DNA from: a virus
Length of the DNA stretch: 56,439 nt
IMG/VR virus record: IMGVR_UViG_3300034374_008412
Location: 1 to 56,439 of that record
Reading direction: 5' to 3' (one strand)
Numbering within the stretch: position 1 is the stretch's first letter; every line of letters begins with the position of its first letter. Position numbers and translations under genes: made by a program. Under the pieces are notes generated by a model. It saw only the letters and a list, made by a program, of their open reading frames with translations. It ran no database searches and had not been told where the DNA came from. This document shows, one piece after another, positions 5,834 to 49,160 of this stretch.

Positions 5834-5839
5834 GTCCTC
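5821..5839 (+). terminator. Intercistronic hairpin
   Basis: GGGGACTT (5821-5828) pairs with AAGTCCTC (5832-5839) over a 3-nt loop and is followed by TTTTTC. It covers the stop of the 5075 gene and may reduce transcription into 5877. Confidence 0.5.
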
Positions 5840-5876
5840 TTTTTCTATAAATTAGTAACAATAAAAATCAAATAAA

Positions 5877-6155
5877 ATGAAAAAATCAATTTTTAAGTTT
5901 AAGAGAGTGTTGTCAATGATAACATTATTAGTAAAGTACGATTTGTTAAGACAAACATTGTACTATGAATATTTCTCCCGTGATTGTGATATGTACCAAA
6001 CGGGTGGAGTAAAAAGAGTAAAAGGTTTTATAAACTACCTTATCGAAAGAAAAAAGTTTAGACAAACATACGGGTTCTCTTATATGAACATTATAGATAA
6101 ATCAGAGTTCTATGAACGAAGAAATTTAATTTTATTAACTTCAAAATCTTTTTAA
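5877..6155 (+). CDS. Small basic unknown protein
   Basis: A 92-residue, strongly basic, Tyr- and Phe-rich protein (FKFKRVLSMITLLVKYDLL near the N-terminus). It has no clear membrane span or known motif. It is the first of a run of ten or so small genes with gaps of only a few bases up to 9599. Confidence 0.65.
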   Translation: MKKSIFKFKRVLSMITLLVKYDLLRQTLYYEYFSRDCDMYQTGGVKRVKGFINYLIERKKFRQTYGFSYMNIIDKSEFYERRNLILLTSKSF

Positions 6156-6159
6156 AAAA

Positions 6160-6942
6160 ATGGAAAATATATTACTTATTTTAGTCGGTGTTATAATAAC
6201 AATTTTAGTATTTTCTTTTGTTATTAATAACCTTATTACTCGTAACATTCAATCAATAACCGAAGACTTATTTCATAAGGTAAATAAGATGCAGGACAAA
6301 CAGAAAGTAATTGAAACATCTGTTAATTCATTAGGAGAATTATTTATCCTTACAGAGAAACAAAAGGATGAAATTTTAAAATCTAATAATTCTAATTTTG
6401 AAAGACATCAAATTAGTTTAGATGTTATTTTGACAAACCTTGATGCACATATTAGAAGCAGTAAAATACTATTAGTTGATAATTATGATTTTAAAGAAAA
6501 CATTAAACCTATTTTTTCAAATTTAGTTCAGATTAAAAATATGATTGAGAATATTCAACCATCTTATGTAAAGAACTTACCTACAATTATGGATGATATA
6601 GGCAAACAAGTTGATTCTTTGGATGAAACATTATCTATTAGAAAGAAGCCAAGTAAGAAAGTTAATAGACCTAATATATCTCCAAAGGCAGATAAGTTAT
6701 TAAATATGACACTACAAGCATTTATTCATAGTGGAGAAGTGCATCAGTTTTTATCTTTAGACAAGCATAATATAAATGTTATAAATAGGTTTTTAAATCT
6801 AATTTATACTTATTCAAAGGATATTAAAGATGAAAAGATTATCAATATGAGTGGTAAAAAACTTACAGAGATAAAAGGAGCAGGAAAGGTAATGTCCGAT
6901 ATATTTGAAGAAATGAAAAAAGAAATTATAAACTTAAAATAG
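6160..6942 (+). CDS. Membrane-anchored coiled-coil protein
   Basis: A 260-residue protein with an N-terminal membrane span (about 4-26, ILLILVGVIITILVFSFVI) followed by a long helical, probably coiled-coil region. The C-terminal 80 residues look globular and include EIKGAGKVMSDIFEEM, which resembles a helix-hairpin-helix turn (Gly-x-Gly). It is unlike the - strand virion membrane proteins in length and in being early. A role tethering replication or defence factors to the membrane is possible but unproven. Confidence 0.75.
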   Translation: MENILLILVGVIITILVFSFVINNLITRNIQSITEDLFHKVNKMQDKQKVIETSVNSLGELFILTEKQKDEILKSNNSNFERHQISLDVILTNLDAHIRSSKILLVDNYDFKENIKPIFSNLVQIKNMIENIQPSYVKNLPTIMDDIGKQVDSLDETLSIRKKPSKKVNRPNISPKADKLLNMTLQAFIHSGEVHQFLSLDKHNINVINRFLNLIYTYSKDIKDEKIINMSGKKLTEIKGAGKVMSDIFEEMKKEIINLK

Positions 6943-12356: not shown

Positions 12357-12635
12357 TTACCATAAAAGTTTGTCTGCGTACCATCCGTTTGAACCTCTTT
12401 TATGTCTGTTGTTGTTATGTCTTTTTTTGTATGCTTTTCTTCTTTCATCTGCGTAAGCCTTTCCTTTTGTTTTAATGTATGTAGGATAGTCGCCATATCC
12501 AATAGCACCAACTGATGCTACCTTCTTACCATTCTTAAATACATCAATTTTCTTTCCCTTAACCCTGCTTGGCTTTACTTCAACTCCAAGTTTTTTAGCT
12601 TGTCGTTTCGTGTATTGAGTAATAGTATATGCCAT
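12357..12635 (-). CDS. DUF5754-like protein shared with eukaryotic giant viruses
   Basis: This 92-residue basic protein matches my memory of the DUF5754 family, known mainly from giant viruses and related elements of eukaryotes: VKPSRVKGKKIDVFKNGKK, then VGAIGYGDYPTYIKTKG, a basic RRKAYKKRH helix and a C-terminal GWYADKLLW. Its function is not known to me. Finding it in a bacterial virus that appears to carry a membrane and an A32-like ATPase is notable. The identification rests on the GYGDYPTY and YADKLLW signatures. Confidence 0.65.
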   Translation of the reverse strand: MAYTITQYTKRQAKKLGVEVKPSRVKGKKIDVFKNGKKVASVGAIGYGDYPTYIKTKGKAYADERRKAYKKRHNNNRHKRGSNGWYADKLLW

Positions 12636-12638
12636 ACC

Positions 12639-12800
12639 TTAGTTCTTTAAGTCTTTTTCCTCTAAGTCTTCAATTTGCATCCTTGTAATCTTAATGCGAT
12701 AATATGTATGAATACCCGTTAGAAGTAAAACTCCAATTCCTAAAATCGTTGCTATCTCCTTTCCTCTTTTAGTCTGTAAAAATTGTATTAAATTATTCAT
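12639..12800 (-). CDS. Small single-span membrane protein (53 aa)
   Basis: ATG at 12800 opens 53 codons ending TAA at 12639. The basic start (QTKRGKE) is followed by one span (IATILGIGVLLLTGIHTYY) and a charged tail (MQIEDLEEKDLKN). It abuts the DUF5754 gene (3-nt gap) and follows the methyltransferase-like gene by 2 nt. Confidence 0.6.
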   Translation of the reverse strand: MNNLIQFLQTKRGKEIATILGIGVLLLTGIHTYYRIKITRMQIEDLEEKDLKN

Positions 12801-12802
12801 AA

Positions 12803-13405
12803 CTATTGCTTTATATAACTACCCCACGCAACATTCAAAAACGTATCTTGCATTAAGGGTTCTAAATTATATCTACTTAAACTTTCTTTTATTGCTCCTT
12901 CATTACATTCAAAGTAATCCCAAACATTTAATTTAGTAAAAGAACTTAAATCTATTGCAAAGTCGTGTGCAAATATTATATCATTTGTATTTAAGAATTT
13001 ACTGAAATGATTAAATTCAGAAATCTTATCTCCACCATCACAAAATAGAATAGTATTCTTTTTACTACTATTTAAAATAAGTTCTATTGTATCTGTTTCA
13101 AAAACATTTTCTTCGTAAAACTTTACTTTTTTTACTTTATTTGATATTTGTCTTTGCCCTATTGAAGCATCAACATCAAAAGAATGTATTGTAGTATTAT
13201 CAGATAGTTTATGATTATCTAAAAAGGTTGTAAAACCACCTCTAAAAGTCCCTATCTCAATTATAGTGTCTATAATAATTTCATTAGAATTTAAATAGTC
13301 ATATAGCTTATCAAATGCACTTTCTATCTGATAGTGCTGACAAGTAAAAACACCATTTATATTACAATGGTTTCTCATATCATTATTTAAAACTACCTCT
13401 AACAT
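12803..13405 (-). CDS. Class I SAM-dependent methyltransferase-like protein
   Basis: From ATG 13405 (overlapping the upstream stop as TAATG) the protein has 200 residues. EIGTFRGGFTTFL at about 50-62 is the SAM-binding loop of a Rossmann methyltransferase, HSFDVDA follows at the second strand, and ILFCDGGDK resembles motif IV. The arrangement is like the Methyltransf_24 / cephalosporin-hydroxylase type. Such enzymes modify small molecules or sugars; a role in decorating virion or host-surface glycans would fit the glycosyltransferases at 33.8-36.1 kb but is not shown. Confidence 0.7.
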   Translation of the reverse strand: MLEVVLNNDMRNHCNINGVFTCQHYQIESAFDKLYDYLNSNEIIIDTIIEIGTFRGGFTTFLDNHKLSDNTTIHSFDVDASIGQRQISNKVKKVKFYEENVFETDTIELILNSSKKNTILFCDGGDKISEFNHFSKFLNTNDIIFAHDFAIDLSSFTKLNVWDYFECNEGAIKESLSRYNLEPLMQDTFLNVAWGSYIKQ

Positions 13406-14067
13406 TATTTCATTATTATTATACCACCAATTAAGCCAACTCCTAACCAAAAAACTTTTCGGTCATAGAATTTCTTTTCATCTTCAATTATTACGTTTTT
13501 CATATCAATAGTAGATAAGTAAGGGTTTGTATTTTCTAACTTTACTATTGGAATACTCTTTCTAAATATACCACCCGATTTATTTCCAATAGTTAATTTC
13601 ATTTCATTTGGTATAACAATACTATCAACCAATAATCCTTCCTTTAGAATTAATCCATTAAAAGAATAGTGTTCTTTTGTTAAATTAAACCTTTTAGGAA
13701 CTTCTATTACTCCTTTTGGATAAATTGTATCACTTATATATATAGTTTCAGTATAAGGAACGGGAACACTATCAATTCTTATTTCAGTAATAGTCTTTAC
13801 TTGTCCTTTTATTTTTTTTAGGTTTTCTATTTCCAATATACCTAATTCTATTGCATCTTTTTGAGATATAATTATTTGCTCTTGCTCGGCTATCTTAACA
13901 CTATCCTTTGATAGTTTTTCTTCAAAGAATTGATTATCTAATTGTAACTTTCCTATTTGTTTTTTAAATGAAGAAAGTCGCACTTGGGTATTGCATAGTT
14001 GCCAAACCAAAAACGCAACCACGCACCCAAGTACGACAAGCAGAGATTTTTGTATATCTATCTTCAT
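13405..14067 (-). CDS. Membrane-anchored coiled-coil protein (spanin-like)
   Basis: A 220-residue protein with an N-terminal span (LLVVLGCVVAFLVWQL), a coiled coil to about residue 95, a beta-rich periplasmic-type region (VPVPYTETIYISDTIYPKG) and a second span at the C-terminus (VFWLGVGLIGGIIIMK). This design is common among Bacteroidota phage lysis-cassette proteins and resembles an inner-membrane spanin or a structural tether. It lies beside the cell-wall enzymes, supporting a lysis or entry role. Confidence 0.7.
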   Translation of the reverse strand: MKIDIQKSLLVVLGCVVAFLVWQLCNTQVRLSSFKKQIGKLQLDNQFFEEKLSKDSVKIAEQEQIIISQKDAIELGILEIENLKKIKGQVKTITEIRIDSVPVPYTETIYISDTIYPKGVIEVPKRFNLTKEHYSFNGLILKEGLLVDSIVIPNEMKLTIGNKSGGIFRKSIPIVKLENTNPYLSTIDMKNVIIEDEKKFYDRKVFWLGVGLIGGIIIMK

Positions 14068-14479: not shown

Positions 14480-15223
14480 TTATTTATTTTTACCTTTTAA
14501 ATATAATCCATAGCCTAACAAACCTAAACCACCTATTAAACCACTTAAAAATATTGTTCTTTTAAAATATAGTTTATTTTGTGTCCACTTATCAAATAAG
14601 GTATATGTGAAGTATTTATTTCTATAAATACCTTCCTGCTTCTCCACTAATTGCATAAACTCTTTAAAACAATAATAGTTTTGAAAAACTTGGCATCCTG
14701 CTGAATAATCTCCAATAAATTCTGTATTACCATTTCCATCGTCTGCTCCGTAATTCTTTGCTTTATGAATGTTTATACCAAACATACCACAATCTTTATC
14801 TTTTAAGTTGAATGATAAAGTTGCGTTCCTATCGTAATCACGATAAACACAAATAGGTTTAGCTTGAGTTAATGCTCTATATTTTCCTTTGTGAGAACCT
14901 ATTTTCCAAGTATCTATATATTGACCCGAAGGCAAAATTGCAGTTGCCGACCTTCCTTGATAACTACCTATACCACCCCTTGTTAAGTATTTAGTAGAAG
15001 GGTCGGTTGTAATTGCATACTTTCTTCCTTCCCAATTATTTTTATCATCCTTCCAAAATACATAAAGTGTATCATCAAACTTTTTGGGATTAGTATTCTT
15101 ATTCCTTACCCCGACTATATTTAGTTGATAAGGTTTTTTATAAATAATATACTTTTTAGACTTCATTAGTCCTAATAAGTATCTTATCTGTACTATACCT
15201 AAATTTTCAGCATTACAACTCAT
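14480..15223 (-). CDS. L,D-transpeptidase-like cell-wall protein with C-terminal membrane anchor
   Basis: This 247-residue protein has a YkuD-like signature: H153 in GINIHKA followed by S174-A-G-C177 in YSAGCQVF, the spacing and residues of the His/Cys active site. The preceding part (WKIGSHKGKYRAL) is beta-rich. A membrane span near 222-243 tethers the enzyme. Family enzymes form or break cross-links in peptidoglycan. With the muramidase at 15336 and DUF5675 protein at 15935 it makes a cell-wall module. Similar phage proteins are often left as hypothetical; the active-site assignment is mine. Confidence 0.7.
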   Translation of the reverse strand: MSCNAENLGIVQIRYLLGLMKSKKYIIYKKPYQLNIVGVRNKNTNPKKFDDTLYVFWKDDKNNWEGRKYAITTDPSTKYLTRGGIGSYQGRSATAILPSGQYIDTWKIGSHKGKYRALTQAKPICVYRDYDRNATLSFNLKDKDCGMFGINIHKAKNYGADDGNGNTEFIGDYSAGCQVFQNYYCFKEFMQLVEKQEGIYRNKYFTYTLFDKWTQNKLYFKRTIFLSGLIGGLGLLGYGLYLKGKNK

Positions 15224-15339
15224 TTTGCTTTCCCCCTTTCAAATTTACTTGCTCTACCCTTTCTAACTAAAAAATAAAGCAAAGATGTTCCTACTAATAA
15301 ACCTACACCACCAATAATATATTTATCTGACTTCTTCAT
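15220..15339 (-). CDS. Small single-span membrane protein (39 aa)
   Basis: ATG 15339 opens 39 codons ending TGA at 15220, overlapping the next gene start by 4 nt and the muramidase stop by 4 nt. The product is one hydrophobic span (IIGGVGLLVGTSLLYFLV) with a basic tail (RKGRASKFERGKAK). The tight overlaps support it being real. Confidence 0.65.
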   Translation of the reverse strand: MKKSDKYIIGGVGLLVGTSLLYFLVRKGRASKFERGKAK

Positions 15340-15935
15340 TTTTTTACACCCTTATAAATAAAATAACCCATCGAACCTAAAACAATTACTCCTAAAGCTA
15401 AAAACATAGCCTTTTTAGAAGTAAAACCACCTGCATACTTTATGTCCTCTAACCTACGCATCCAACCTTCTCTAAAAGCAGGATTACCACTTGCATATCT
15501 ATCAGCACGTTCTTTATAAATATCATCAAATAAAGTCTTTTGATTAGCCTTATTAATAACCTTTGCATCGAAGTTTGTAAAAGATATGTTTTGCTTTGAC
15601 AAAGCCTTTTTAACCATTGATTTAGTTCCATACAACCCGTGATTAACAGAAGCATCATATATTATCAATGCAACAGATTGATTTTTTAGTTTATCTCCAT
15701 CAATCTTATCCCAATAGTTCTGTTTATATATCATAGATGCAGTTTTAGGAGAAAGGTTTTTCATATCCGAAATAGTTATAGGTCTGCCTAAATATGCTTT
15801 AAGTATTGGAGCAGAAATACCATAGTTTGTTCCTATCAGTTTACCATCTACCCAATTACCATTATCTTTAGGATTATTTGTATAACCCCCTTCCGACTTA
15901 CCTACCTTTTTATGTGCATCTACAAAACTTGCCAT
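15336..15935 (-). CDS. GH108-type N-acetylmuramidase with C-terminal membrane anchor
   Basis: A 199-residue lysozyme-like protein. The N-terminal catalytic motif is EGGYTNNPKD (15-24) with E15 as the general acid, then TNYGIS (37-42), both typical of glycoside hydrolase family 108. DASVNHG follows near 94-100, and the C-terminal helix pair completes the domain. Unlike usual members it ends in a membrane span (about 175-196, AMFLALGVIVLGSMGYFIY), so the enzyme is tethered. It cleaves peptidoglycan glycan strands, either for lysis or, if in the virion membrane, for entry. Confidence 0.9.
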   Translation of the reverse strand: MASFVDAHKKVGKSEGGYTNNPKDNGNWVDGKLIGTNYGISAPILKAYLGRPITISDMKNLSPKTASMIYKQNYWDKIDGDKLKNQSVALIIYDASVNHGLYGTKSMVKKALSKQNISFTNFDAKVINKANQKTLFDDIYKERADRYASGNPAFREGWMRRLEDIKYAGGFTSKKAMFLALGVIVLGSMGYFIYKGVKK

Positions 15936-16420
15936 TATCCTTTATTTATATCTTTTACTTCTAATTCTATATATCCTTCACTACTTTTTTCAATAGCATC
16001 AACTAAAATAGGATAAAGGTCTTTATAAGCATCTCCACTTCTACTTCCCCTTGCACTTTTAAAGTCAATACTATAATTCGGAAGTAAGCATCCTGCCGTA
16101 GCATCATCTGAATTTCCTAAATGGATTAGTATATATTGAAATCTTTTACCATCATTCTCTAACACCCAATTAGGCTTATTATAAACACAAAGCATACCTT
16201 TATGAAAATCATACTTTTCAGAATATCTATTGTGAAAACCACCTTCTTTTCTTAATGAAACTTTATAAGTTCCTTCGGGTATTCGGGTTTCACTTGCAAC
16301 CTTTTCCCCACTTGGTCTGTCTTGGTCTTCAATGCAACCACAAAAAGCAACACCATCAATAAGAAAAACACCTATTGTAGTATCGCCATCATCTTTTAGT
16401 CTTAATAATTCAAACTTCAT
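15935..16420 (-). CDS. DUF5675-family protein
   Basis: I start at ATG 16420, 1 nt after the stop of the upstream gene; the longer frame would lie over that gene. The 161-residue protein matches the DUF5675 pattern: LLRLKDDGDTTIGVFLIDG, ED..RP with RIPEGTYKVSLR, an HIGNSDDATAGCLLP-type segment with conserved His, Asp and Cys, and a C-terminal strand. The family is frequent in phages and near cell-wall enzymes, and its exact chemistry is not settled to my knowledge. Location next to the GH108 gene supports a cell-wall or entry function. Confidence 0.8.
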   Translation of the reverse strand: MKFELLRLKDDGDTTIGVFLIDGVAFCGCIEDQDRPSGEKVASETRIPEGTYKVSLRKEGGFHNRYSEKYDFHKGMLCVYNKPNWVLENDGKRFQYILIHLGNSDDATAGCLLPNYSIDFKSARGSRSGDAYKDLYPILVDAIEKSSEGYIELEVKDINKG

Positions 16421-16421
16421 A

Positions 16422-16736
16422 CTATTTCTTATTTGCGAGTTCTTTGTTAAGGTATTCAAGCATATATTCGACTGCTTCTCTTTCTTCTGCATCAATGTTA
16501 TTGTCTGCAAGAAGTTGTTTATTAGCCGATATAGTTGTTTTAAGTTCATCTAAACTCATATTTTTTACATCATCAATAAACCTTTTAGGAAGGTTAGATT
16601 CAAAAGTTTGCTCAACCTTATTTGGTTCATTTTTCTTTTTTGGTTTGTTCTTTTTTGGTTTGTTAAAGTAAAATAATGCAAAAGCTATTGTCAATAACCC
16701 TACACCAATAATTACTCTATTGTTTCTCTGCTCCAT
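16422..16736 (-). CDS. Single-span membrane protein
   Basis: A 104-residue protein with an N-terminal span (VIIGVGLLTIAFALFYF), a very basic linker (NKPKKNKPKKKNEPNK) and a helical acidic C-terminal domain. The basic linker next to the span places the domain on the inner side. Unknown; same plan as several putative virion membrane proteins. Confidence 0.75.
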   Translation of the reverse strand: MEQRNNRVIIGVGLLTIAFALFYFNKPKKNKPKKKNEPNKVEQTFESNLPKRFIDDVKNMSLDELKTTISANKQLLADNNIDAEEREAVEYMLEYLNKELANKK

Positions 16737-24168: not shown

Positions 24169-24654
24169 TTAATCCTCTAATAATTCTCTCAAAGAATATG
24201 TAACATCAATCGGAGCATCAACAGATATTAATCCTTTTTTTACTGAAACGAAACCTCTCGTAGTAAATTTAGAAGTACCTCTTCTTGTTAAAAGCGAGTA
24301 AATTACATTTGCAATTCCTACTTCTTTTGGATTAAATGAGAAATCAAAAGTTATTTGAGAAGTACCCCCAAAACCTTTAACTAAAGTATCTACATTAGAA
24401 TTTATAATTTTACCAATAAAACTATTATTAATAATAAAGGCTAAATCATATTTTCTAATCGTAAAGTCAATTTCACTATTATTAGTTATATTAACACTAA
24501 TTCTTAAAGTTACGTTTGAAGGACTTTTATCAATTACCTTTATACCACTTAAAGAAATATCAGATTCTTCTAAAATAGCAACTTCGGTCTTATAGTAAGT
24601 ATAAGCACCATAACCAACTAAACCTAACCCCCCTAAAAGTAATAAACTTCTCAT
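24169..24654 (-). CDS. Membrane-anchored LEA-2 (WHy) domain protein
   Basis: A 161-residue protein with a very short N-terminal span (LLLLGGLGLVGYGAYTYY) followed by one LEA-14-like domain: ISLSGIKVIDKSPSNVTLR, then the family's Asn-Pro-like element ISVNITNNSEIDFTI, YDLAFIINNSFIGKI, and a strand ending TFDFSFN. LEA-2 domains form a beta sandwich and occur in membrane-linked proteins of bacteria and archaea. In a virion it could line or stabilise the internal membrane. Family recognised by pattern; no paralogue in the window. Confidence 0.7.
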   Translation of the reverse strand: MRSLLLLGGLGLVGYGAYTYYKTEVAILEESDISLSGIKVIDKSPSNVTLRISVNITNNSEIDFTIRKYDLAFIINNSFIGKIINSNVDTLVKGFGGTSQITFDFSFNPKEVGIANVIYSLLTRRGTSKFTTRGFVSVKKGLISVDAPIDVTYSLRELLED

Positions 24655-27461: not shown

Positions 27462-27866
27462 CTATTTATTATTCTTTCCGTAATAAGCTAAAGCCTTTTT
27501 TAAATCTGCTCCATCTAAATCATCTTTAAACCAAGCTATCAAATCTTCTCCATTACCAAAATTTGCATCAAAGTAGTTTTTAACCTCTATTCTTTTTTGA
27601 GAATCTAATGGGTCTAAAGTATTCCAAATTAATTTTTCGTTAGTACCCCATCCTTTCATAGCCTTATATAAGTTTTCAGCACTTTCTTTTGGATTAAATT
27701 TAGTATCTGTTCCCTTATCAACATTAGCTATACCCTTTGCAACTTCATCTATTTCATTATTATTCTTAAAAGATTTTTTACCTTTCTTTTTAATGAAAAA
27801 ATATGCTCCTGCTCCTAAAAGTCCAACAACACCTATTCCTATCGCTATTTTAATATTCTTATTCAT
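27462..27866 (-). CDS. Membrane-anchored annexin-like repeat protein 1
   Basis: A 134-residue protein: N-terminal span (IAIGIGVVGLLGAGAYFFI), basic linker, then one annexin-like repeat from about 62 to 130. It has AENLYKAMKGWGTNEKLIW, the Gly-x-Gly-Thr turn of the type II calcium site, a five-helix length, and DLIAWFKDDLDG, placing an Asp about 42 residues after the turn as in true annexins. Annexin repeats bind acidic phospholipid through calcium. It probably sits in the virion membrane. Paralogues at 28342 and 28764. Confidence 0.75.
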   Translation of the reverse strand: MNKNIKIAIGIGVVGLLGAGAYFFIKKKGKKSFKNNNEIDEVAKGIANVDKGTDTKFNPKESAENLYKAMKGWGTNEKLIWNTLDPLDSQKRIEVKNYFDANFGNGEDLIAWFKDDLDGADLKKALAYYGKNNK

Positions 27867-27871
27867 ATACT

Positions 27872-28336
27872 TTACTTATATGCGTTTCTAAAATCACTTT
27901 GTTTTTTAATCAAATCATTAATACTACTTGATTTTCTTCCCATTATTACTGAATGAACATTATCTGTTTTTCTTCCCCAAACACCATCTTCTACTAAATA
28001 AGAAAAATCAGCTATTTTTTTTCTTCTTGCTTCTTTTGAAGAATCAGAATTTTTAGGAGATTTTCTTGCTATGTTAATAATGCTATTCAAAAGTTTTTGT
28101 GATGATTTAACCGATTCTCCCCTTGAACCTCTACTCAGCTTTTTATTCTTATCAACTGAATTAGAATTTGTTTTAGAAGTAGAAGTGGAAGTAGAAGTAT
28201 TAATATCGCTTGAAGTAATTGAATCTACGTCAAAATTTGAATCTTTCTTTAAAAACTTTTTATATAAGAAAAAACCACCAACACTAATTAATGCTAATGA
28301 ACCTATACCTATTGCTATTTTTGTACCTTTTTTCAT
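27872..28336 (-). CDS. Membrane-anchored protein with peptidoglycan-binding-like domain
   Basis: A 154-residue protein with an N-terminal span (IAIGIGSLALISVGGFFLY), a Ser/Thr-rich linker, then a domain with LSRGSRGESVKSSQKLL (about 67-83) and VEDGVWGRKTDNVHS. This matches the PG_binding_1 pattern, in which a Gly-x-x-Gly-x-x-Val helix is followed by a DG.(F/W)G..T loop. It would dock a membrane protein on the cell wall during entry or exit. It lies between two annexin-like genes. Confidence 0.7.
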   Translation of the reverse strand: MKKGTKIAIGIGSLALISVGGFFLYKKFLKKDSNFDVDSITSSDINTSTSTSTSKTNSNSVDKNKKLSRGSRGESVKSSQKLLNSIINIARKSPKNSDSSKEARRKKIADFSYLVEDGVWGRKTDNVHSVIMGRKSSSINDLIKKQSDFRNAYK

Positions 28337-28341
28337 ATTGT

Positions 28342-28761
28342 TTAATTAAAATATCCTTTTGCTTTAGCTAATTCGCTTCCATCTAAATCATCTTCAAACC
28401 ATTGAAATAAAGATTCTCCTTTACCTAAATAGGCATCAAAATATTGTTTAACACTATTTCTTTGTTCTTTATTTAATGGCTCTAAAGTGTTCCAAATCAA
28501 ATTTTCGTCTGTACCCCATCCCTTCATAGCTTTGTATAATTGTTCAGCAGGAAATTTAGGGTCAAATTGAACCTTTGTGTTTTTACCTTGTAAGTTACCT
28601 TTACTTTCTTTTGATAGAATAGATTTATTTCCAAGTTTACGAAGAACTTTACCTCTACCCGTTACTTTTTGATAAACCTTTAAACCAACATAAGCTACAC
28701 CAATACCTAAACCTAAATAGATAGCTAATTTAATTTTTCCTTCTTTTGTAGATATATCCAT
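28342..28761 (-). CDS. Membrane-anchored annexin-like repeat protein 2
   Basis: A 139-residue paralogue of the 27462 protein: N-terminal span (LAIYLGLGIGVAYVGLKVY), basic linker, and one annexin-like repeat with AEQLYKAMKGWGTDENLIW, then LFQWFEDDLDGSEL. The GWGTDE turn is closer to the animal annexin consensus (GxGTDE) than in copy 1. Identity with copy 1 over the repeat is high, indicating duplication around the 27872 gene. Confidence 0.75.
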   Translation of the reverse strand: MDISTKEGKIKLAIYLGLGIGVAYVGLKVYQKVTGRGKVLRKLGNKSILSKESKGNLQGKNTKVQFDPKFPAEQLYKAMKGWGTDENLIWNTLEPLNKEQRNSVKQYFDAYLGKGESLFQWFEDDLDGSELAKAKGYFN

Positions 28762-28763
28762 TA

Positions 28764-29264
28764 TTAAAAGTTTGTAATTTTACTTGCTAAAGTTAATTGT
28801 TCCTCATCATCTAATTCTGACTTTAATCTCTCAGATAATGATTCTCCACCTTGTATTCTTGAATATGATTCTGCTACTTTTGATACATTACCTTTACTTC
28901 CTAATTGCTCAAAAACACCATAAATAGCTTCTTCATCAGTTCCCCAACCATCAACTGCATCTTTAATTATATTAGCATAAGATACTGCTTGTTGTTCAGT
29001 TATTGATTTACCACCATTAGTTTTATACCATAATGGCGACCAATATCTTCCCGACCAAAGACTATCGTTTACCTTATCCATTTCTTTTGATTCGGGAGTA
29101 TCAATAACACCCGTTTTCTTTAGGATAGGTCTAACAATACCAAAATAGGCAAAACCTATTACTACGGGTATTCCTATCACATATAAATATACTTGTGGTG
29201 GAATCATCCCTAAAGCACTTGCTCCTGCTTGACCTTGTGTCATACCCTTTCCTTTAACTGCCAT
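28764..29264 (-). CDS. Membrane-anchored annexin-like repeat protein 3
   Basis: A 166-residue, more divergent member: a hydrophobic span near 22-45 (PPQVYLYVIGIPVVIGFAYF), then AVDGWGTDEEAIYGVFEQL and, about 40 residues later, LSERLKSELDDEEQL, the helix D-E pattern of an annexin repeat. It differs in having a longer N-terminus and a longer linker. It overlaps the metallopeptidase gene by 11 nt. Confidence 0.7.
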   Translation of the reverse strand: MAVKGKGMTQGQAGASALGMIPPQVYLYVIGIPVVIGFAYFGIVRPILKKTGVIDTPESKEMDKVNDSLWSGRYWSPLWYKTNGGKSITEQQAVSYANIIKDAVDGWGTDEEAIYGVFEQLGSKGNVSKVAESYSRIQGGESLSERLKSELDDEEQLTLASKITNF

Positions 29265-30024
29265 ATTCCCAATTTTTTATAAAAGCATCTAACTTTTCAA
29301 ATCTATCTAAACTTTGTTTACTATTTGCTGACTTAAATACATTTAAGAAAACATTATATGCATCTATTCTTGGATAACCTAATGCTAAATAAATTCTAAG
29401 TCCATTTAAGTCTGCTTCAACCTCACTACTCGGAGTTTTATTAACGTAATAATGCGAATACTCGTGAAGTAAAATAGCCATTCTCATAGGTATAGAATAC
29501 CTTTCAAATGCTTTTTTTGACACTTCTATTCTACCCGTTAATTGACTTATCCTTGCAGGAGTTTTAATTGGCTTATTGTCTGCCTTGCTCCTTACTTGGT
29601 CGTAATAGTCAATTTGAAATTTACCATTATCACTAAAGTAACTTTCTCCTTTCATACTTGCAGGAAGATAACTTGCTTCCTCTGAAAATTCTTGTGCGAA
29701 ATTTACAAAAGCCTTTGTCTTCCTTGACATAGGTATTCTTTTAGTGCTTTTTAAAGGCAATATTTCTATTGCTTTTATTTTAAACCCATCATTATTTAAA
29801 GGTGTTTGCCCATCTTTATAAACTAACAACCTTGAAACATTTGCACTTTCGGGTAAACCGATATAATATATTTCAGTACCATTAACCCTTGCGTACCTTT
29901 TAGAGTAATATGTTTTTGGTGCATTTGCATCACATATCTTTATCCATAGTTTTTCTGACTTTGGAGTAGATATTACTACTTTTATAGTACAAGCTAATTC
30001 ATCTGTTTTTATATCTCTAACCAT
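29254..30024 (-). CDS. Zinc metallopeptidase (HExxH) of the virion module
   Basis: Start taken at ATG 30024, 1 nt after the stop of the upstream gene; a longer frame begins with GTG. The 256-residue protein has an N-terminal beta-rich region (about 1-95) and a C-terminal zincin domain with LLHEYSHYYVNK (H187, E188, H191) and, ten residues on, SSEVEADLNGLR whose Glu/Asp supply the third zinc ligand. No signal peptide is visible. It is embedded among virion membrane genes, so it may mature structural or polyvalent proteins, or attack the host envelope. Confidence 0.75.
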   Translation of the reverse strand: MVRDIKTDELACTIKVVISTPKSEKLWIKICDANAPKTYYSKRYARVNGTEIYYIGLPESANVSRLLVYKDGQTPLNNDGFKIKAIEILPLKSTKRIPMSRKTKAFVNFAQEFSEEASYLPASMKGESYFSDNGKFQIDYYDQVRSKADNKPIKTPARISQLTGRIEVSKKAFERYSIPMRMAILLHEYSHYYVNKTPSSEVEADLNGLRIYLALGYPRIDAYNVFLNVFKSANSKQSLDRFEKLDAFIKNWEYGS

Positions 30025-30025
30025 C

Positions 30026-30292
30026 CTATAACGATGCTTCTGCACCTTCTAATTTACCACTCTTATTTAATTTATAAATACCATATATAGCTAAAGCAAC
30101 ACCGAAAGCAATCATCAAATTTCTTTTTCTTTTATTTCCGATTTCACTCATAGTTGGAGTATTACCAACTGCGTTTCTATATGTATTTTCATCGTGAACT
30201 TCTAATTGACCTTCTTTTTGTTGTTCAACTAACCATTCTTTAAATGGCTTTGAAGTTCCACTCATTTTGTATTTTTGGTTTGCACTTGACAT
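30026..30292 (-). CDS. Single-span membrane protein
   Basis: An 88-residue protein: soluble, polar N-terminal two-thirds (KPFKEWLVEQQKEGQLEVHDE), then a basic stretch (NKRKRN), a span (LMIAFGVALAIYGIYKL) and a short polar end. Unknown. Plan shared with other C-terminally anchored proteins here. Confidence 0.7.
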   Translation of the reverse strand: MSSANQKYKMSGTSKPFKEWLVEQQKEGQLEVHDENTYRNAVGNTPTMSEIGNKRKRNLMIAFGVALAIYGIYKLNKSGKLEGAEASL

Positions 30293-31844: not shown

Positions 31845-32582
31845 TTATCCTCTTCTTCCTTTCAAAGCACGTAATGCACCTTTTGAAAGTTTTAAAGTTT
31901 CAGATTTTACAAGTCTTGGGTTTCCATAACCTCTAACTGCTCTTCTACCCGTTAAAGTTCTTGCAGTAGATACAGTTTCAGAAGGATAGAAGTAAATCTT
32001 CACAACTGCTGATGCTAATACTGAACTTAATACGATTGCTGTGAAACCATCAATTTTATAAGAGAACTTCACAACTACGATAGTAGATTGTTGCTGATAA
32101 GGGTCAATAGTTGGAACTAAAGTCTTTTGACTTTCATTACCATTAACATCCTTTTGAATTAATGTTAAAGTTTCTAATACTTGGTTAGCAGTAGAAGATT
32201 GGTAATAGGTTTGCCCCACTACGAAACTTTTATTCATTGACTGATACAAAAATTCTTGGTAAGTAACCCCTGCAATTCCCATTGTAATAGAAATCGCTGA
32301 CGAATTTTGCCAATTCGGAGAAGAATAAGCTAACGTACTATACGCACCTAAAATAGTACAAGGAAACGCAGTAGTCGTGTTCGTGTTTGTGATAGATACG
32401 ATGTAAGGTTGAGATGTCGGAGCAGATGCTTGTCCTACTGCCATATCAAACTCATCATCTGCGTAACCATCGAAATCATAATCTTCATCTGCAAAATCGT
32501 AGTCGTCATCCCACCCATCTGCATTGAAGAAATTTTCGTTAGCTTCTTCTTGTGCTTCTGAAAAATATTTTCTTAAATCCAC
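31845..32582 (-). CDS. Candidate major capsid protein
   Basis: A 245-residue protein in three parts. Residues 1-50 are extremely acidic (FFNADGWDDDYDF, DEDYDFDGYADDEFD) with FDG/DGW motifs shared with nearby membrane proteins. Residues 55-200 are strand-rich (TYQEFLYQSMNKSFVVGQTY, LTLIQKDVNGNES, then IDPYQQQ, KIDGFTAIVL, VKIYFYP). Residues 205-245 are basic. The middle resembles my memory of capsid proteins of FLiP-like and other jelly-roll viruses (a Pro-Tyr-Gln-x-Gln stretch before a DG strand). Own promoter, own terminator and position beside the ATPase fit a capsid. The core is short for a double jelly roll, so a single jelly roll is possible. Confidence 0.55.
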   Translation of the reverse strand: MDLRKYFSEAQEEANENFFNADGWDDDYDFADEDYDFDGYADDEFDMAVGQASAPTSQPYIVSITNTNTTTAFPCTILGAYSTLAYSSPNWQNSSAISITMGIAGVTYQEFLYQSMNKSFVVGQTYYQSSTANQVLETLTLIQKDVNGNESQKTLVPTIDPYQQQSTIVVVKFSYKIDGFTAIVLSSVLASAVVKIYFYPSETVSTARTLTGRRAVRGYGNPRLVKSETLKLSKGALRALKGRRG

Positions 32583-32960: not shown

Positions 32961-33773
32961 TTATTTATTTGGAATGTACATTTTTACCATTAAATCTTTA
33001 ATATGTTTATGTGCAGTTTCGGGAGTAAACTTTAGCTTACCTTTTGCATCTCTCATATTTAGTAAAGGTTTAACTTTTTTATTGTAATTCAAAGAAATGT
33101 ATTCATCAATAGCTTCTAATATTTGTTTTTTGCTATAATTACCATAGATATATTCATCATCACAATTATATGTAACGTGAAATCTTTTATTTCCATTATG
33201 ATATTGGTTATTAACCATAATCTCTACTAACTTCAATGCTTCGTGCCTATCATCAAACTTTTTATGATGTTTGTCAACTGAATCAGAATTTTTGTGAAAT
33301 CTAATCCAATTTAAGTTTTGCCATACTTTAGGCGATACACGACCAATACTTTGAAAGTGCATAATAATATCAGTAGAGGTATGACGATTAGTACATAAAG
33401 CACCAATAAGGTCATTCGGAGCATAGTCAGAAACATATTTATTGACATCTTCTATTAATAATAACCCCCCTTTGTAATTATCTAAAATAAGTTTTAGTGT
33501 ATCTGCAATTTCAGTTAAACTCATTTTTGAACCATCGGGGTTATATGGTCTTATTCGTCTAACTTCTACTTTTGGATGGTGGCTAAATACTTTAACGTGG
33601 GAAATTGATAAACCCTTTACATTTTCAAATTCATCGTTTACATCAAGTATTAATGCTCTACGAGGTCTAATTGTTGAACCACCTTTAACATATTGCTCTA
33701 TGACTTGCATAGTAGTATATGTTTTTCCTATTCCTTTTTTACCAACTGCAACCCCTAATTGTGCTTCTCTCAT
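32961..33773 (-). CDS. Packaging-type P-loop ATPase (FtsK/HerA, A32/P9-like)
   Basis: A 270-residue ATPase with Walker A GKKGIGKT (11-18), Walker B LLLIED (104-109), TNRH (128-131) and a sensor Gln (141, FQSIGRV), followed by QNLNWIRFHK. This order and compact size match the genome-packaging ATPases of membrane-containing icosahedral viruses. The filamentous-phage Zot-type ATPase is the main alternative, but that family has a membrane span and no capsid neighbour. It would pump DNA into preformed capsids. It overlaps the upstream glycosyltransferase gene by 4 nt. Confidence 0.8.
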   Translation of the reverse strand: MREAQLGVAVGKKGIGKTYTTMQVIEQYVKGGSTIRPRRALILDVNDEFENVKGLSISHVKVFSHHPKVEVRRIRPYNPDGSKMSLTEIADTLKLILDNYKGGLLLIEDVNKYVSDYAPNDLIGALCTNRHTSTDIIMHFQSIGRVSPKVWQNLNWIRFHKNSDSVDKHHKKFDDRHEALKLVEIMVNNQYHNGNKRFHVTYNCDDEYIYGNYSKKQILEAIDEYISLNYNKKVKPLLNMRDAKGKLKFTPETAHKHIKDLMVKMYIPNK

Positions 33774-36151: not shown

Positions 36152-37246
36152 TTATTTCTTTCTTTCCTTTGCTTTTGCTTCTGCGTTTGCCTTATCCATC
36201 TCTTTCTGAACTAAATCGGGATGATTTGTTTCTTGTGGTCTTTTAAATTCGTGAATATTCATTTTCTGCGTTTGAACTTCATATTCTGAATTATCTAATC
36301 CTTGACCGATTTCTGTTTCATCATCCAAAATCATCTCTTGAACCCTTGGTTCTTGTCTTCTTTGCCTTTGAACGGGTATTTCTTCTTCATAAACATCTTC
36401 TTGCTCTACTCGTTCTGCCTTATCAGTCGGAATACCACCTTTTGATTCTTCGTGAATTTCTTTTAGTAGATTCATTGTAGAATTAATAGACTTTTTTAAT
36501 CCTATAAATTGAGTTGTTTTTGCAAGTATGTCTTTACCGAACATAAAGATTAGGTATTGTTCATCAGTCATACCCCAACCTTTCTTCATAAATACCCTAA
36601 TCATAGCAGGGCGAACCTTCATACCAAACTCTCTATCGTAGCTTAACACTTCCTCTGCTTGTTCATTATAACTTTGAACGAACTCGGTTAATGAAACATC
36701 TCCACCACTTTCTAAAGGCATACGCATAGTTCCATCAATTTCATCATTTAAGATTAATTGATTTAGCTTATCTTCGGGAAATTTAGCAAAGTTACTTACT
36801 ACTTTATGTAGTCCTGCATAAGTATCTAAAACTGTATCTACCATTGATTCACAAGCAATTTGTTTTTCTTGTGGTGGTAAATCATTTAATGCAGGATTAG
36901 GATTATCAAAAGGGTTTCCTGCTTCCTCTTCCTCTTCACTTGGAGTATTCATTAAATCATCAAAAGACAAGTCCTGCTCAAATGAAGGTTCGGGAATATC
37001 ATCAGTCAAACCTTCGGCAGTTTTTGGAGTTGCATATTCTCTCTCAACTACATTGTCTGCTAATGGATTATAATTGCCAAAAGTACCTTCCAATGGGTCT
37101 TGGCTTTGTGTTTGTTGAACCTCTGCTTCAAATGGTTCATTGTTCGCTTCCTCTACCACGTTTGCATCTTCTATTTCCATTACTTCTACTTCTTGTTCCT
37201 CTACTATTGGTTCGGGAGTTTTTCTTGGTCTTCCTCTTTTTGCCAT
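36152..37246 (-). CDS. Acidic protein with N-terminal AT-hook
   Basis: A 364-residue protein that begins MAKRGRPRKTPEP, a perfect AT-hook core (Arg-Gly-Arg-Pro) suited to the minor groove of AT-rich DNA. Residues 15-135 are acidic and disordered. A folded helical domain lies at about 135-275 (VVSNFAKFPEDKLNQL, MKKGWGMTDEQYLIFMFG). The C-terminus is charged again. It could organise the viral genome or be a transcription factor for late genes; both are inference. Follows the DnaA-like gene directly. Confidence 0.7.
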   Translation of the reverse strand: MAKRGRPRKTPEPIVEEQEVEVMEIEDANVVEEANNEPFEAEVQQTQSQDPLEGTFGNYNPLADNVVEREYATPKTAEGLTDDIPEPSFEQDLSFDDLMNTPSEEEEEAGNPFDNPNPALNDLPPQEKQIACESMVDTVLDTYAGLHKVVSNFAKFPEDKLNQLILNDEIDGTMRMPLESGGDVSLTEFVQSYNEQAEEVLSYDREFGMKVRPAMIRVFMKKGWGMTDEQYLIFMFGKDILAKTTQFIGLKKSINSTMNLLKEIHEESKGGIPTDKAERVEQEDVYEEEIPVQRQRRQEPRVQEMILDDETEIGQGLDNSEYEVQTQKMNIHEFKRPQETNHPDLVQKEMDKANAEAKAKERKK

Positions 37247-38762: not shown

Positions 38763-40535
38763 CTAATTAATTGGACTACCTATTTTAGAATACTCTCTAT
38801 TTTGTGGAAGTTTCATACCACCTTCTTCTATAATATTGTAATTATTATTTCCACCATCAACAATCATATATCCATCAACCTCTTTTTTAATTTCATTAAG
38901 AGCAGATTTACCTTTACTAAAGAAATCATCAATCACTTCTAATGGAACAAACCTTCCCGATTTTTGGTATCTTTTTAAGGCTCTATCAACTATTACATCT
39001 TTAGGTACATTATCAATGTAAACTACATAAATCTTATATCCAAGTTCTTTTAATATTTTGATTAATGGAAGATACGATTTAGTATTGTTCATTGTTCCAT
39101 CATAAATTAAATCGAAATTACAAGGCAAACCAATAGTTCTATCAGACAATAAAGTATTTACAATGTCTTTAGTTTCTAAATGTGTTTGAGATGCGTTCCA
39201 ACCTTCATATTCGGGTAACATAGAACGAACTTCATCAGCATCAATTCTTAATAGTTCTTCGCTTAATAAATAAGGTGCATATTTTTTAAGGAATGTACTT
39301 TTACCACTTGCAGGAGAACCACCCATTAAAATAGCAATAGGTTCATCAGATTCAATACAAACTAAATTGTCTTTAAACTCATTAAGTATTTCTTTATGAA
39401 GTTTTTGTCTTGCAGGAGAATACTTTTTTGTTTTCTCGTTAAAGTGTTTAGACTTTGTTTGCTCCAAAGAATTTACATAATCAGTAAGTTCCTTGATGCT
39501 TTTTCTGTCAATCTTTCTTGTACCATCAGAATCAAACAATTTGTCCTTCATTTCCTTTGACATAATTGTTCCACCTTTTTCGTAGTATTCCGACCAATTA
39601 ATTTTAGTCTTACCACCTTTAGCAAATTCTTCAAACCCTTCTAATTCATTTAATGAAACACCTATTGGTCTTAAACCATAAGGCTCATTATCTAACCCGT
39701 AATCAAAAGTATATCCTGCCGATTCCATTTCTTTAAGGAAGTTCTTACTATCCTTGTAATTATAGTCGCCTTCTATGATTTTAGCTTCGTACTTTGCATA
39801 TATATCACGAGCATCTTTTGGTAACTTTTCGTAGTCCTCAAATAAATCTACCATTCCACCTTTAGCGAAAGAGCCACAAGTAGGGCAAACTTCTCCACCT
39901 TTTGCGTAATAATTACCTTTTCTTTTAGATTTATAGGCTTGTTCCCAAGGTTCTTTGCTCAATCTTCTTGCATCTACCCTTCTTGAATGTGTAGTTCTTC
40001 CACCTTTAGCGAATAAACTTATTCCCGTTCCATCCTCTACCCTAATTGTAGCATTTGGATATTTCTCTTTAAGAACTCTATAATGAGCAGGAATTAATTG
40101 CCAATCTTGAATACTAATAGCTTGTTCTAAAACTTTACGATTATCAGTATCTACTGCAACCACAGAAAAAGGAGCATTATAATTATGTATATCTTTCATA
40201 ATACTTCTTAATCTTCCACCTTTAGCAAAGTTTGTAATATAATCTCTATTAACATTATATTGAGCATTTGAAATAAACCTACTATTCCAATTAGAATTAT
40301 TTAGTCTATATGCTTCATCTTTAGTGTGATTTTGTAAATATTCTACTATATCAGAATCGGGTTTATTAATCTTTTCTCCAATTATTTCAGTCCAACCATT
40401 AGGAAGTACATTAGTTTTTACCTCATACCCCATACGTTCATAGTACGGGATAAAAGGTTCAACTGAAAGTTCGGGATGCAGTCTTTCAAGAACTACACCC
40501 CCTTTTTCAAATCTTTCTTCGTTTAAAATATCCAT
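38763..40535 (-). CDS. AKGG-punctuated polyvalent protein with zeta-toxin-like kinase
   Basis: A 590-residue protein in modules separated by FAKGG, YAKGG or EKGG. The C-terminal module has a P-loop kinase of the zeta toxin / polynucleotide kinase type: AILMGGSPASGKSTF (Walker A near 408), IDADEVRSMLPEY, a Thr-His-Glu segment, and DGTMNN. A zinc-like CPTCGSF lies between two KGG motifs. One module (SKEPWEQAYKSKRKGNYYAKGG region) is duplicated in the 40538 protein. I infer a precursor cut at KGG sites or a virion protein delivered with DNA; zeta-type kinases phosphorylate UDP-sugars or nucleotides. Confidence 0.7.
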   Translation of the reverse strand: MDILNEERFEKGGVVLERLHPELSVEPFIPYYERMGYEVKTNVLPNGWTEIIGEKINKPDSDIVEYLQNHTKDEAYRLNNSNWNSRFISNAQYNVNRDYITNFAKGGRLRSIMKDIHNYNAPFSVVAVDTDNRKVLEQAISIQDWQLIPAHYRVLKEKYPNATIRVEDGTGISLFAKGGRTTHSRRVDARRLSKEPWEQAYKSKRKGNYYAKGGEVCPTCGSFAKGGMVDLFEDYEKLPKDARDIYAKYEAKIIEGDYNYKDSKNFLKEMESAGYTFDYGLDNEPYGLRPIGVSLNELEGFEEFAKGGKTKINWSEYYEKGGTIMSKEMKDKLFDSDGTRKIDRKSIKELTDYVNSLEQTKSKHFNEKTKKYSPARQKLHKEILNEFKDNLVCIESDEPIAILMGGSPASGKSTFLKKYAPYLLSEELLRIDADEVRSMLPEYEGWNASQTHLETKDIVNTLLSDRTIGLPCNFDLIYDGTMNNTKSYLPLIKILKELGYKIYVVYIDNVPKDVIVDRALKRYQKSGRFVPLEVIDDFFSKGKSALNEIKKEVDGYMIVDGGNNNYNIIEEGGMKLPQNREYSKIGSPIN

Positions 40536-40537
40536 AA

Positions 40538-42616
40538 TTACATATTAAATTCGTTCTTCATAAATTGTGCTTGTCTGCGAGTTCTTTCATCGTAGTAAGA
40601 AGGATTATGTAATACTTGATTCATAAAATCTTCTGTATCTAAACCTCTTGCTTCTGCTTTGCGTGAAAATGAATTTTCAACATTTCCACCTTTAGCAAAT
40701 TTATCTTCATCTATTGCATAATAAATGTCTTCTCCTCTTATATAGTCATCTACACCTTCTTCTCCATATACTGCAACACTATATCCATCTAATTCAATAG
40801 CAGTATCATCATTTTGTCCATTTGAGTAAAGCATATCCATTAATTCTTCAATAGTTTGCTTATCTCTTTTTCCACTTTTTAGTTTTTTAGATAATTCTCT
40901 TGAATTAATTGAATAATTTTCTCCTTGTAATGGCTCATTTTCATCTAACCAATAGATAGCAATATCAATAATATCACTTGATGCAGTTACTCCACCTTTA
41001 GCATAGTAATTACCTTTTCTTTTTGACTTATATGCTTGTTCCCAAGGTTCTTGGCTTAATCTTGCTCTGTCTTTTCTGATTGAACGTAATGAACGAGTTT
41101 TACCACCTTTAGCAAATAAGTGTTCATAGTCTTCAAGCATATCGTATTCTTCTAATACTTCTTTTGCTTTTTCATCACTATCATAAGCAACGTATGAATC
41201 TTGTACTGCATAATAAACATCTGAATCTCTACCCCAATCTTCTGCGATAGCACTTAGAACTTTTCCACCTTTAGCGAATTTTTTACCTTTTAATCTATTT
41301 GAGAAATTATCTTCCATAAAATAGTGTAATGGTGCTTCTTTTACTGAATTATTTAATGCTGAAACCATTAATAAAGCATCTCCTTTACCTTTAACTAAAG
41401 CAACAAACTCTCTGTTATCTTTATTTGGGTTATTAGTATTTGTAACAAAAATGTCATAACCTAATTGTTTATCTACAATTACAGATTTAGTAGAACCACC
41501 TTTAGCAAAGTTAATTCCTGCACTTTCTCTTGCTGACAAAATCATATTTTCAAGACCTTTAAGTGTCTTTTTTCCATAATTAGTTTCTATTTTACCATTA
41601 GAAGAATTTATTGTGAAAATTGACTTTGCAATCGTTTCGGAATCAAATTGAGTATTTGAAATCATATCCGATAAACCTTCAATAGATTTTTTACCTCTTG
41701 ACGTTTGTATTTGACCACTCATCTCATTTGGCTCAAATATAGCTTTAACTATATCTGAATCTACCTCTCCACCTTTAGAATACATAGATGGCTTTCCACC
41801 CATCCAAGGAACTTCGTATGCTTGAACTCCTGCTCCAAGTTCTCCACCATAACCATAATCTCTTAATAAAACGTCAATTTCCTTTCTTAAATTAATTAAG
41901 AACTTTTTTTGGTCGTCTTTCTTGAATCTACCAATTTCATCACTAACAGATTCTATGAATTTAGTAGTAGCAGATATAAGGTCTTCGGTCATATCCTCAA
42001 CCTTTTTCTCAATGATTTCCTCTTTCTTTTTTTCAACTTGCTTTTTAACCTCTGTTGCAGTTTTACCTTGTGGCTTAACAACTTTTTTAGCTTCTCTCTC
42101 TGCTTCTTTTTCTATTTGCTCTACTTCCTTTTTAATTTTTGGAGCAACTTCTTTTGCAGTTGTTTTAGTTGTAGCATCAGCAGTTTTAACATTAGTACCA
42201 TCAATGATTTCATCTTTCTTTTTAAGTTCTGAAACTCTTTCTTTTTGCTCCTTATTTGTTTTAAGTCGCATAGCTTCATACTTGGCAAGAATTTCTTTAC
42301 ATTCCTCTATTGTCTTACCCGTAGCATCTTTAACTTCTGCCTTCTTTTTCTCTCTTTCCTCTTTTGTAGTTTTAGGCTTTGTAGTTCTCTTTGCAGTTGT
42401 CTTTTTTGCAGGACTTTTCTTTGGAGCAGGACTTTTTTTTGCTCCACCAATACTAAACTTTGTTTTTAATCTACCTATCTCTTTTTTCAAGTCTTCATCG
42501 GCATCTTTCTCTAATTTGCCAATCATATCTTTAAGACCTTTCAAGTAAAATTCTCTTTCTTCTCCTTTTTCAGAATCTATTACTTGCTCGAACATTGTTA
42601 AATTTTCTTTGCTCAT
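40538..42616 (-). CDS. AKGG-punctuated polyvalent coiled-coil protein
   Basis: A 692-residue protein. Residues 1-240 are a Lys/Glu/Ala-rich coiled coil with a Lys-Pro-Ala basic stretch (PKKSPAKKTTAKRTTKPK), likely DNA-binding. The rest is a string of small modules ended by YSKGG or FAKGG (six copies), 40-90 residues each. One module repeats a segment of the 38763 protein. Several modules have the look of small alpha/beta domains (FVTNTNNPNKDNREFVALVKG) but no enzyme motif. Abutment (2-nt gap) to the 38763 gene suggests a common origin. Confidence 0.65.
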   Translation of the reverse strand: MSKENLTMFEQVIDSEKGEEREFYLKGLKDMIGKLEKDADEDLKKEIGRLKTKFSIGGAKKSPAPKKSPAKKTTAKRTTKPKTTKEEREKKKAEVKDATGKTIEECKEILAKYEAMRLKTNKEQKERVSELKKKDEIIDGTNVKTADATTKTTAKEVAPKIKKEVEQIEKEAEREAKKVVKPQGKTATEVKKQVEKKKEEIIEKKVEDMTEDLISATTKFIESVSDEIGRFKKDDQKKFLINLRKEIDVLLRDYGYGGELGAGVQAYEVPWMGGKPSMYSKGGEVDSDIVKAIFEPNEMSGQIQTSRGKKSIEGLSDMISNTQFDSETIAKSIFTINSSNGKIETNYGKKTLKGLENMILSARESAGINFAKGGSTKSVIVDKQLGYDIFVTNTNNPNKDNREFVALVKGKGDALLMVSALNNSVKEAPLHYFMEDNFSNRLKGKKFAKGGKVLSAIAEDWGRDSDVYYAVQDSYVAYDSDEKAKEVLEEYDMLEDYEHLFAKGGKTRSLRSIRKDRARLSQEPWEQAYKSKRKGNYYAKGGVTASSDIIDIAIYWLDENEPLQGENYSINSRELSKKLKSGKRDKQTIEELMDMLYSNGQNDDTAIELDGYSVAVYGEEGVDDYIRGEDIYYAIDEDKFAKGGNVENSFSRKAEARGLDTEDFMNQVLHNPSYYDERTRRQAQFMKNEFNM

Positions 42617-48918: not shown

Positions 48919-48919
48919 T

Positions 48920-49156
48920 TTAATCTACTAATCTATTTGGGTCTAAAATTTGTTCTTTTAAATTTACTGCTTGGTCTATTGTATCTCCCAATGCCATTCT
49001 TTGTAAAATGAATTGCTCTAATTCCTTATATCCTTTTTCAGTAGATGCTAACTTACATACATAAAAAGAATCGTTTTCATTACAAAATTCATCAATGAAG
49101 GCTTTAATAGTTCTTTTTGCCTCATTAATAATGTACTTTTTATTATCTATATTCAT
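48920..49156 (-). CDS. Small protein between helicase and methyltransferase genes
   Basis: A 78-residue helical, acidic protein (IIDNKKYIINEAKRTIKAF-like start; FILQRMALGDTIDQAVNL near the end). It has the size of a small adaptor and lies with 1-4 nt gaps between the two large genes, so it may link their products. Not recognised. Confidence 0.65.
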   Translation of the reverse strand: MNIDNKKYIINEAKRTIKAFIDEFCNENDSFYVCKLASTEKGYKELEQFILQRMALGDTIDQAVNLKEQILDPNRLVD

Positions 49157-49160
49157 AACC

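Follow-up and report, generated by a model that had tools for sequence, protein, structure and literature searches.

The analyzed window, a 56,439-nt stretch of bacterial-virus DNA that makes up one IMG/VR virus record, contains at positions 27462-29264 four consecutive minus-strand genes. They lie in the order P3, P2, a fourth gene and P1, and are separated by gaps of 2, 5 and 5 bases:

28764-29264, minus strand: P3, 166 aa, with an N-terminal membrane span and a single annexin repeat at 28809-28976
28342-28761, minus strand: P2, 139 aa, with an N-terminal membrane span and a single annexin repeat at 28345-28572
27872-28336, minus strand: a membrane-anchored peptidoglycan-binding-like protein between P1 and P2, with a 5-base gap on each side
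27462-27866, minus strand: P1, 134 aa, with an N-terminal membrane span and a single annexin repeat at 27489-27683

P1, P2 and P3 each consist of a membrane span and one annexin repeat. The preliminary description of this DNA had read three neighboring genes for anchored single-repeat annexins here, and both its coordinates and its reading were right. Pfam, an independent profile and the predicted fold support the annexin identity. The fourth anchored gene, lying between P1 and P2, had been missed. P1 and P2 are 47% identical across 130 residues. The hydrophobic segment near the N terminus of each protein has a best 19-residue Kyte-Doolittle mean of 2.19 in P1, 1.63 in P2 and 2.07 in P3. The net charges after and before the span (4 vs 2 in P1, 5 vs 1 in P2) would place the heads in the cytoplasm under a positive-inside topology, a signal too weak for use. 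A promoter scan revealed promoter-like sites no more often than in shuffled sequences.

The assignment to the annexins was made by profile and by fold. With the Pfam annexin family PF00191 (curated cut-off 25 bits), P1 and P2 scored 25.6 and 30.7 bits, respectively, and P3 scored 15.9 bits, below the cut-off. A profile built from the repeats of other loci, containing no window sequences, found all three, with 37.7 bits for both P1 and P2 and 63.5 bits for P3, the highest-scoring window repeat with this profile of phage and bacterial sequences; the top score among 3,000 shuffled copies was 12.2 bits. All 60 matches listed in a PDB sequence search with P2 were annexins or annexin fusions, the best of those listed being annexin VI (1.1e-26 summed over its repeats). 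An AlphaFold model of P2, the only one of the three proteins with a model, was generated from 14 aligned sequences and shows the five-helix (A-E) annexin fold. Its five helices are confidently predicted, the mean pLDDT per 10-residue block is 85-98 from residue 61 onward, and the anchor and linker are poorly predicted. Annexins were the leading Foldseek matches, and the model can be aligned with domain 1 of annexin A8 with a Z score of 13.8 and an rmsd of 1.2 Å over 74 residues, and with the isolated domain 1 of annexin I (A1) with a Z score of 11.3. Because of the shuffle control and the fold match of P2, a chance resemblance was rejected.

Annexins, best known from animals and plants, are textbook membrane binders of eukaryotes, with calcium-dependent binding to acidic phospholipid as a defining property. 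Eukaryotic annexins are soluble and contain four or eight repeats. P2 resembles them in fold and calcium motif, whereas P1, P2 and P3 are anchored and contain one repeat each instead of a four- or eight-repeat core, and we therefore classify them as bacterial-type annexin-repeat proteins and not as eukaryotic-type annexins. The GWGT turn is kept in all three, and an acidic residue that aligns with the annexin D/E is located 41 positions after its T. In annexin V the acidic residue follows the T of the motif by 39 positions, which indicates a two-residue insertion in P1-P3. Each of the three sequences thereby carries the type II calcium motif, GxGT plus D/E in the D-E loop, and calcium binding by P1-P3 is plausible on this basis.

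Alignment of 14 repeats showed GxGT intact in ten rows. It is altered in L036 and in L074, and both repeats of L004, the closest relative of the window, have lost it; four of the ten intact rows had been retrieved by a GWGTDE pattern and therefore carry no evidential weight. Of the 14 repeats, 13 retain the acidic calcium-site residue, and the sole exception, L004:14309-14809, is also without GxGT. Among the seven rows from relatives found through the ATPase, a route blind to the motif, GxGT is intact in three and the acidic residue in six. With the GxGT loop gone from several relatives, calcium binding is not a property of the group as a whole.

The fourth gene product, 27872-28336, shares its stalk with the annexin-repeat proteins. 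Its N-terminal anchor is identical to that of P1 at 18 of 42 positions (E 1e-06, a single pairwise comparison). Searched alone, it gave no Pfam PG-binding match. It scores 37.7 bits across residues 1-146 with a profile made from nine relatives, a score to which the anchor contributes, so that the wall-binding identity of the window's own copy is less than certain. Six of ten aligned members of its family match PG_binding_1 at E<=0.01, and a PDB search with the family profile led to the PG-binding domains of cortex-lytic enzymes and endolysins (best match 4e-08). The protein is probably, judging from these family relationships, a wall-binding head on a stalk of the same kind as that of P1.

This company raises the question of whether the annexin repeat itself has turned to a wall or glycan ligand and binds peptidoglycan or an envelope polysaccharide directly, with calcium helping or unneeded. 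PG-binding domains are constant neighbors of the repeat and one of them shares its anchor, some relatives keep the repeat though GxGT is lost, and a structure of annexin A2 with a heparin tetrasaccharide exists (2hyu). A pure glycan binder would have no need of the acidic calcium ligand that nearly all aligned repeats retain, and we consider this explanation unlikely.

Several other window genes bear on the type of virus and on its dealings with the cell wall:

14480-15223, minus strand: endolysin-family-like protein with a C-terminal membrane span (phrog_33083 'lysis, endolysin', 1e-11)
15336-15935, minus strand: GH108 endolysin with a C-terminal membrane span
15935-16549, minus strand: DUF5675 protein, weakly Tlde1-like (PF18925 72.4 bits; Tlde1_dom E 0.01)
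29254-30045, minus strand: HExxH (HEYSH) metallopeptidase-like protein directly upstream of P3, with homologues in 31 of 54 related loci
31845-32582, minus strand: conserved protein, candidate jelly-roll coat protein, present in 36 of 54 related loci
32961-33773, minus strand: P-loop ATPase, candidate genome-packaging ATPase (phrog_2666, 9.2e-07)

The GH108 endolysin matches Pfam GH108 at 6.3e-22 and a PHROG endolysin at 6.2e-28, and its hydrophobic segment is found at residue 176. That of 14480-15223 is at residue 224, and three bacterial islands encode a similar protein, with E values down to 5.6e-55. The HExxH protein gave no Pfam match. Between 24807 and 31578, nine of 12 scanned proteins exceed a hydropathy of 1.5. 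Among 30 window proteins scanned against PHROG there was no portal, tail or head-protease match, and the sole terminase-named match was the ATPase. Tailless membrane-containing phages of the PRD1/PM2/FLiP type are marked by a jelly-roll coat, a packaging ATPase, an internal membrane and the lack of tail genes. Those of the PRD1 and PM2 types possess membrane-bound wall enzymes, many small one-span proteins and a packaging-type ATPase, and the window virus resembles them in all three respects; it differs in that no sequence link to them was found and in that the model of its candidate coat protein is weak (pLDDT 63, best fold match Z 5.8). No published description of this virus group was found in the open-access text available to us, that of PMC5894146 and PMC9719478 included. 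The PRD1 group includes a lytic transglycosylase, and annexin is not mentioned in the text available to us of the study that reports it (Yutin 2018, PMC5894146). Elsewhere in the window, 44098-51269 encodes a 1606-aa helicase-like and a 702-aa methyltransferase-like protein that both match DarB-like antirestriction families, and a short FAKGG/YAKGG motif is repeated in three large proteins at 38763-42616 and 49161-51269.

A tblastn search of 50,697 phage records with P2, P3, the ATPase, the coat candidate and one L004 annexin as queries yielded no match, and back-translated P2 peptides detected no close homologues among viral contigs. Relatives were therefore sought through the ATPase and through DNA patterns. 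The ATPase as query led to 54 related loci, of which 53 share the protein encoded at 36152-37246 and 49 the ATPase under stricter gene calls. In one of them, L035, the candidate coat protein is present in two tandem copies (12537-13238 and 13262-13963). The Pfam annexin search covered 50 of the 53 newly found relatives (all except L070, L075 and L079; L004 was searched apart) and gave matches at E<=0.01 in five. The repeat profile, applied to 50 of the 54 (all except L033, L045, L048 and L053), found an annexin repeat in nine, three of which (L028, L030 and L036) had supplied rows of the model and which include the near-duplicates L028/L078 and L029/L030. The other 41, many of them fragmentary records, have no detectable annexin.

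Where the repeat is present, wall-directed genes are close by. The corresponding interval of L004 contains, in order, an HExxH protein, an annexin, an SH3-like protein (SH3_3 17.2 bits, cut-off 27), a glucosaminidase (97.3 bits), a 75-residue protein, a PG_binding_1 protein (20.5 bits, cut-off 23) and a second annexin. In L028, L029 and L030 the annexin gene has a wall-binding gene immediately after it, and in L036 and L074 the annexin gene is separated from the nearest wall binder by 2 and 4 genes, respectively. The same region in annexin-less relatives holds other anchored heads: in L039 a GH56-like protein and two wall binders, upstream of which lies an M15 peptidase, and in L040 a glucosaminidase-like protein recognized by eye. 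The GH56-like protein, L039:16441-17364, is membrane-anchored, scores 30.2 bits with GH56 (hyaluronidase-like) and occupies the place at which other relatives have annexins or wall binders.

The same data allow P1-P3 to be viewed as structural parts, the repeat being a compact five-helix head that packs on capsid or membrane proteins and the GxGT turn a helix cap and not a calcium site. The abundance of one-span proteins in the region fits such a role, as does the absence of the repeat from most related viruses. A capsid packing unit would not be expected to recur with wall modules in different backgrounds, which is what we observe here and in the loci described below, and this role is quite improbable.

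The search by DNA patterns extended the occurrence of the repeat to other kinds of phage. A pattern for GWGTDExxI matched 16 viral contigs and one for AMxGxGTDE matched 116 stretches; with a third pattern, an annexin-repeat protein was encoded in 56 of the 116 newly fetched loci, corresponding to 40 distinct proteins. The tailed-phage contigs were fetched with a GxGT pattern, so how often GxGT occurs among them says nothing about conservation. By a crude pattern, 31 of the 40 distinct tailed-phage-type proteins have no wall-binding motif in the same chain. In the phage contig L012, the repeat and a C-terminal wall-binding domain (1.3e-06, residues 322-368) are joined in one chain. L021 is a tailed phage contig with a terminase (3.8e-37), a portal (2.4e-65) and a major head protein (2.7e-67); its annexin gene is located one short reading frame beyond the head protein gene and adjoins genes for two short proteins that look by eye like wall binders. 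The annexin proteins of the tailed-phage-type contigs (L140, L189, L013, L136 and others) start with recurrent tags, for example LTESDLARIVRRVI and ELNRIKNLMGYDRSKTLNE, which we take to recall the capsid-targeting sequences of T4-like phages.

Anchored single repeats were recognized by eye in four further viral contigs, L144, L177, L180 and L247. The HExxH protein is common to the window group and to L180 (9.7e-41 against the window) and L247 (6.9e-37 against L057), while a transglutaminase-like protein is common to bacterial islands and to L144 (2.1e-21) and L177 (2e-16). Wall-binding-like neighbors in these four contigs are weak, and none has a Pfam PG-binding match.

In bacteria, PF00191 matches were found in 8 of 395 Bacteroidia genomes. 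One of these, G073, encodes toxin-like proteins in which a HELTH motif precedes four to five repeats. The other seven each encode one anchored protein with one repeat, or two by eye. The next gene is that of a membrane-anchored wall binder in six of these seven single-annexin loci (three identified by profile, three by eye) and that of an SLT transglycosylase in the seventh; after it, L119 and L116 carry GH108 or amidase genes. In the order to which genome G330 belongs, the repeat was found in 10 of 87 genomes.

The loci L116-L122 represent a conserved island of ~10 kb (for example L116:3143-12383) that contains a transglutaminase-like protein of 590-640 aa, a coiled-coil-like protein, an anchored annexin, an anchored wall binder and an amidase or GH108 protein. 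The transglutaminase-like protein occurs in 45 of the 395 genomes, including all seven single-annexin genomes and not G073. An independent draw would place it in all seven with p ~2e-7, a value that serves only as a guide because the genomes are related. In six of the seven, its gene is on the same contig as the annexin gene, 4-5 kb away; the exception is G188, whose annexin contig is just 9 kb long and whose transglutaminase-like matches are on other contigs. Since genes for annexin and for the transglutaminase-like protein are also paired in L144 and L177, which IMG/VR classes as viral, the single-annexin islands look, from gene content, like proviruses or their remains of the L144/L177 virus group type. 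Window protein 24169-24654 was compared with an island protein as a candidate relative and showed no similarity.

The preliminary description had suggested that the proteins could drive calcium-dependent fusion of the virion membrane, or its curvature, at entry. On this reading the anchored repeats would bridge the virion and host membranes and draw them together. The membrane anchors and the intact calcium motif of P1, P2 and P3 agree with this, and three genes would supply valency. The genes found around the repeat are peptidoglycan-binding and wall-degrading ones, which lend fusion no particular support: all seven bacterial loci have anchored repeats beside wall-binding or wall-cutting genes. 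Fusion also leaves unexplained why a single L012 chain combines the repeat with a wall-binding domain and why tailed phages that encode a terminase, a portal and a major head protein have the repeat too. We judge it unlikely.

The recurring peptidoglycan-binding and wall-degrading neighbors point, as indirect evidence, to a role in breaching the envelope. We propose tentatively, as an explanation with a substantial chance of being correct though not yet a probable one, that P1-P3 are docking heads in an envelope-breaching set that also comprises wall binders and wall cutters. Each would present one annexin head on a flexible linker behind its N-terminal membrane span and would act beside the similarly built protein with the peptidoglycan-binding head and the wall-cutting enzymes of the virus. 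The annexin heads may grip an acidic surface of the envelope, phospholipid or lipopolysaccharide, probably by way of calcium that the GxGT loop and the acidic residue coordinate. During the grip, the wall binder and the enzymes would open the peptidoglycan, most likely for genome entry and possibly for exit. A single repeat presumably binds weakly, and three genes could place many copies on a membrane surface. In their anatomy these are one-span proteins on which the heads are exchangeable (annexin, wall binder, SH3 or wall-cutting enzyme), most simply read as a device that would keep a viral membrane attached to the host envelope during wall cutting. The location of P1-P3 in the virion, their ligand, their dependence on calcium and the timing of their action are what we infer as the best explanation of the fold, anchors, motif, gene neighborhood and recurrence of that neighborhood that were observed.

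Single annexin domains have been described in other settings. They occur in PVC-type toxins, for which help in breaching membranes was proposed (Zhang 2012, PMC3482391), and an annexin domain is listed among eCIS effectors (Nat Commun 2021, PMC8213781). As far as the accessible text of these reports goes, P1-P3 resemble the PVC-type (eCIS) toxins in having a single annexin domain with a proposed accessory role at membranes, but in the toxins the annexin precedes a toxin domain in a delivered protein, whereas P1-P3 are anchored and have no toxin domain. Bacteroidetes also have single-domain annexins: in the portion available to us, the survey of Kodavali 2014 (PMC3894181) describes one repeat per protein with a GxGTD motif, often GWGTD, in short genes that form adjacent pairs, with membrane regions predicted in some, all of which is similar to P1-P3. 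Those proteins were reported as cellular, while P1-P3 are viral and tied to a wall-binding module. The same portion of the survey reports a few bacterial annexins and none in viruses, and the words phage and peptidoglycan are absent from it.

The membrane-tethered repeats had at first been thought to be without precedent in viruses. We too found no earlier report of phage or prophage annexins in the open-access literature. Single repeats are not confined to this virus, as they are also present in tailed phages and bacterial islands. The phage repeats, anchored and tied to wall genes, give bacterial-type annexins a concrete setting for function, and since they occur in phages of several kinds, viruses become a candidate vehicle for movement of the repeat between organisms. 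Proteins of the P1-P3 type also offer a minimal one-repeat annexin usable in biochemistry. A broader conjecture, which we regard as having a small chance of being right, is that single repeats are a standard envelope-crossing part of Bacteroidota phages and that bacterial single-domain annexins are viral genes borne by proviruses. These bacterial proteins were proposed to be relatives of the ancestor of eukaryotic annexins; if they are provirus-borne, the simplest living annexins would be phage proteins working on bacterial envelopes. Annexin proteins with multiple repeats were seen as well, in a Chitinophagaceae MAG (L027:3-1799 and 4730-6202) and a cyanobacterial MAG (L023:1951-7959). Those of the Chitinophagaceae MAG come after a HELTHTVQQ motif, presumably the motif as found in DUF4157.
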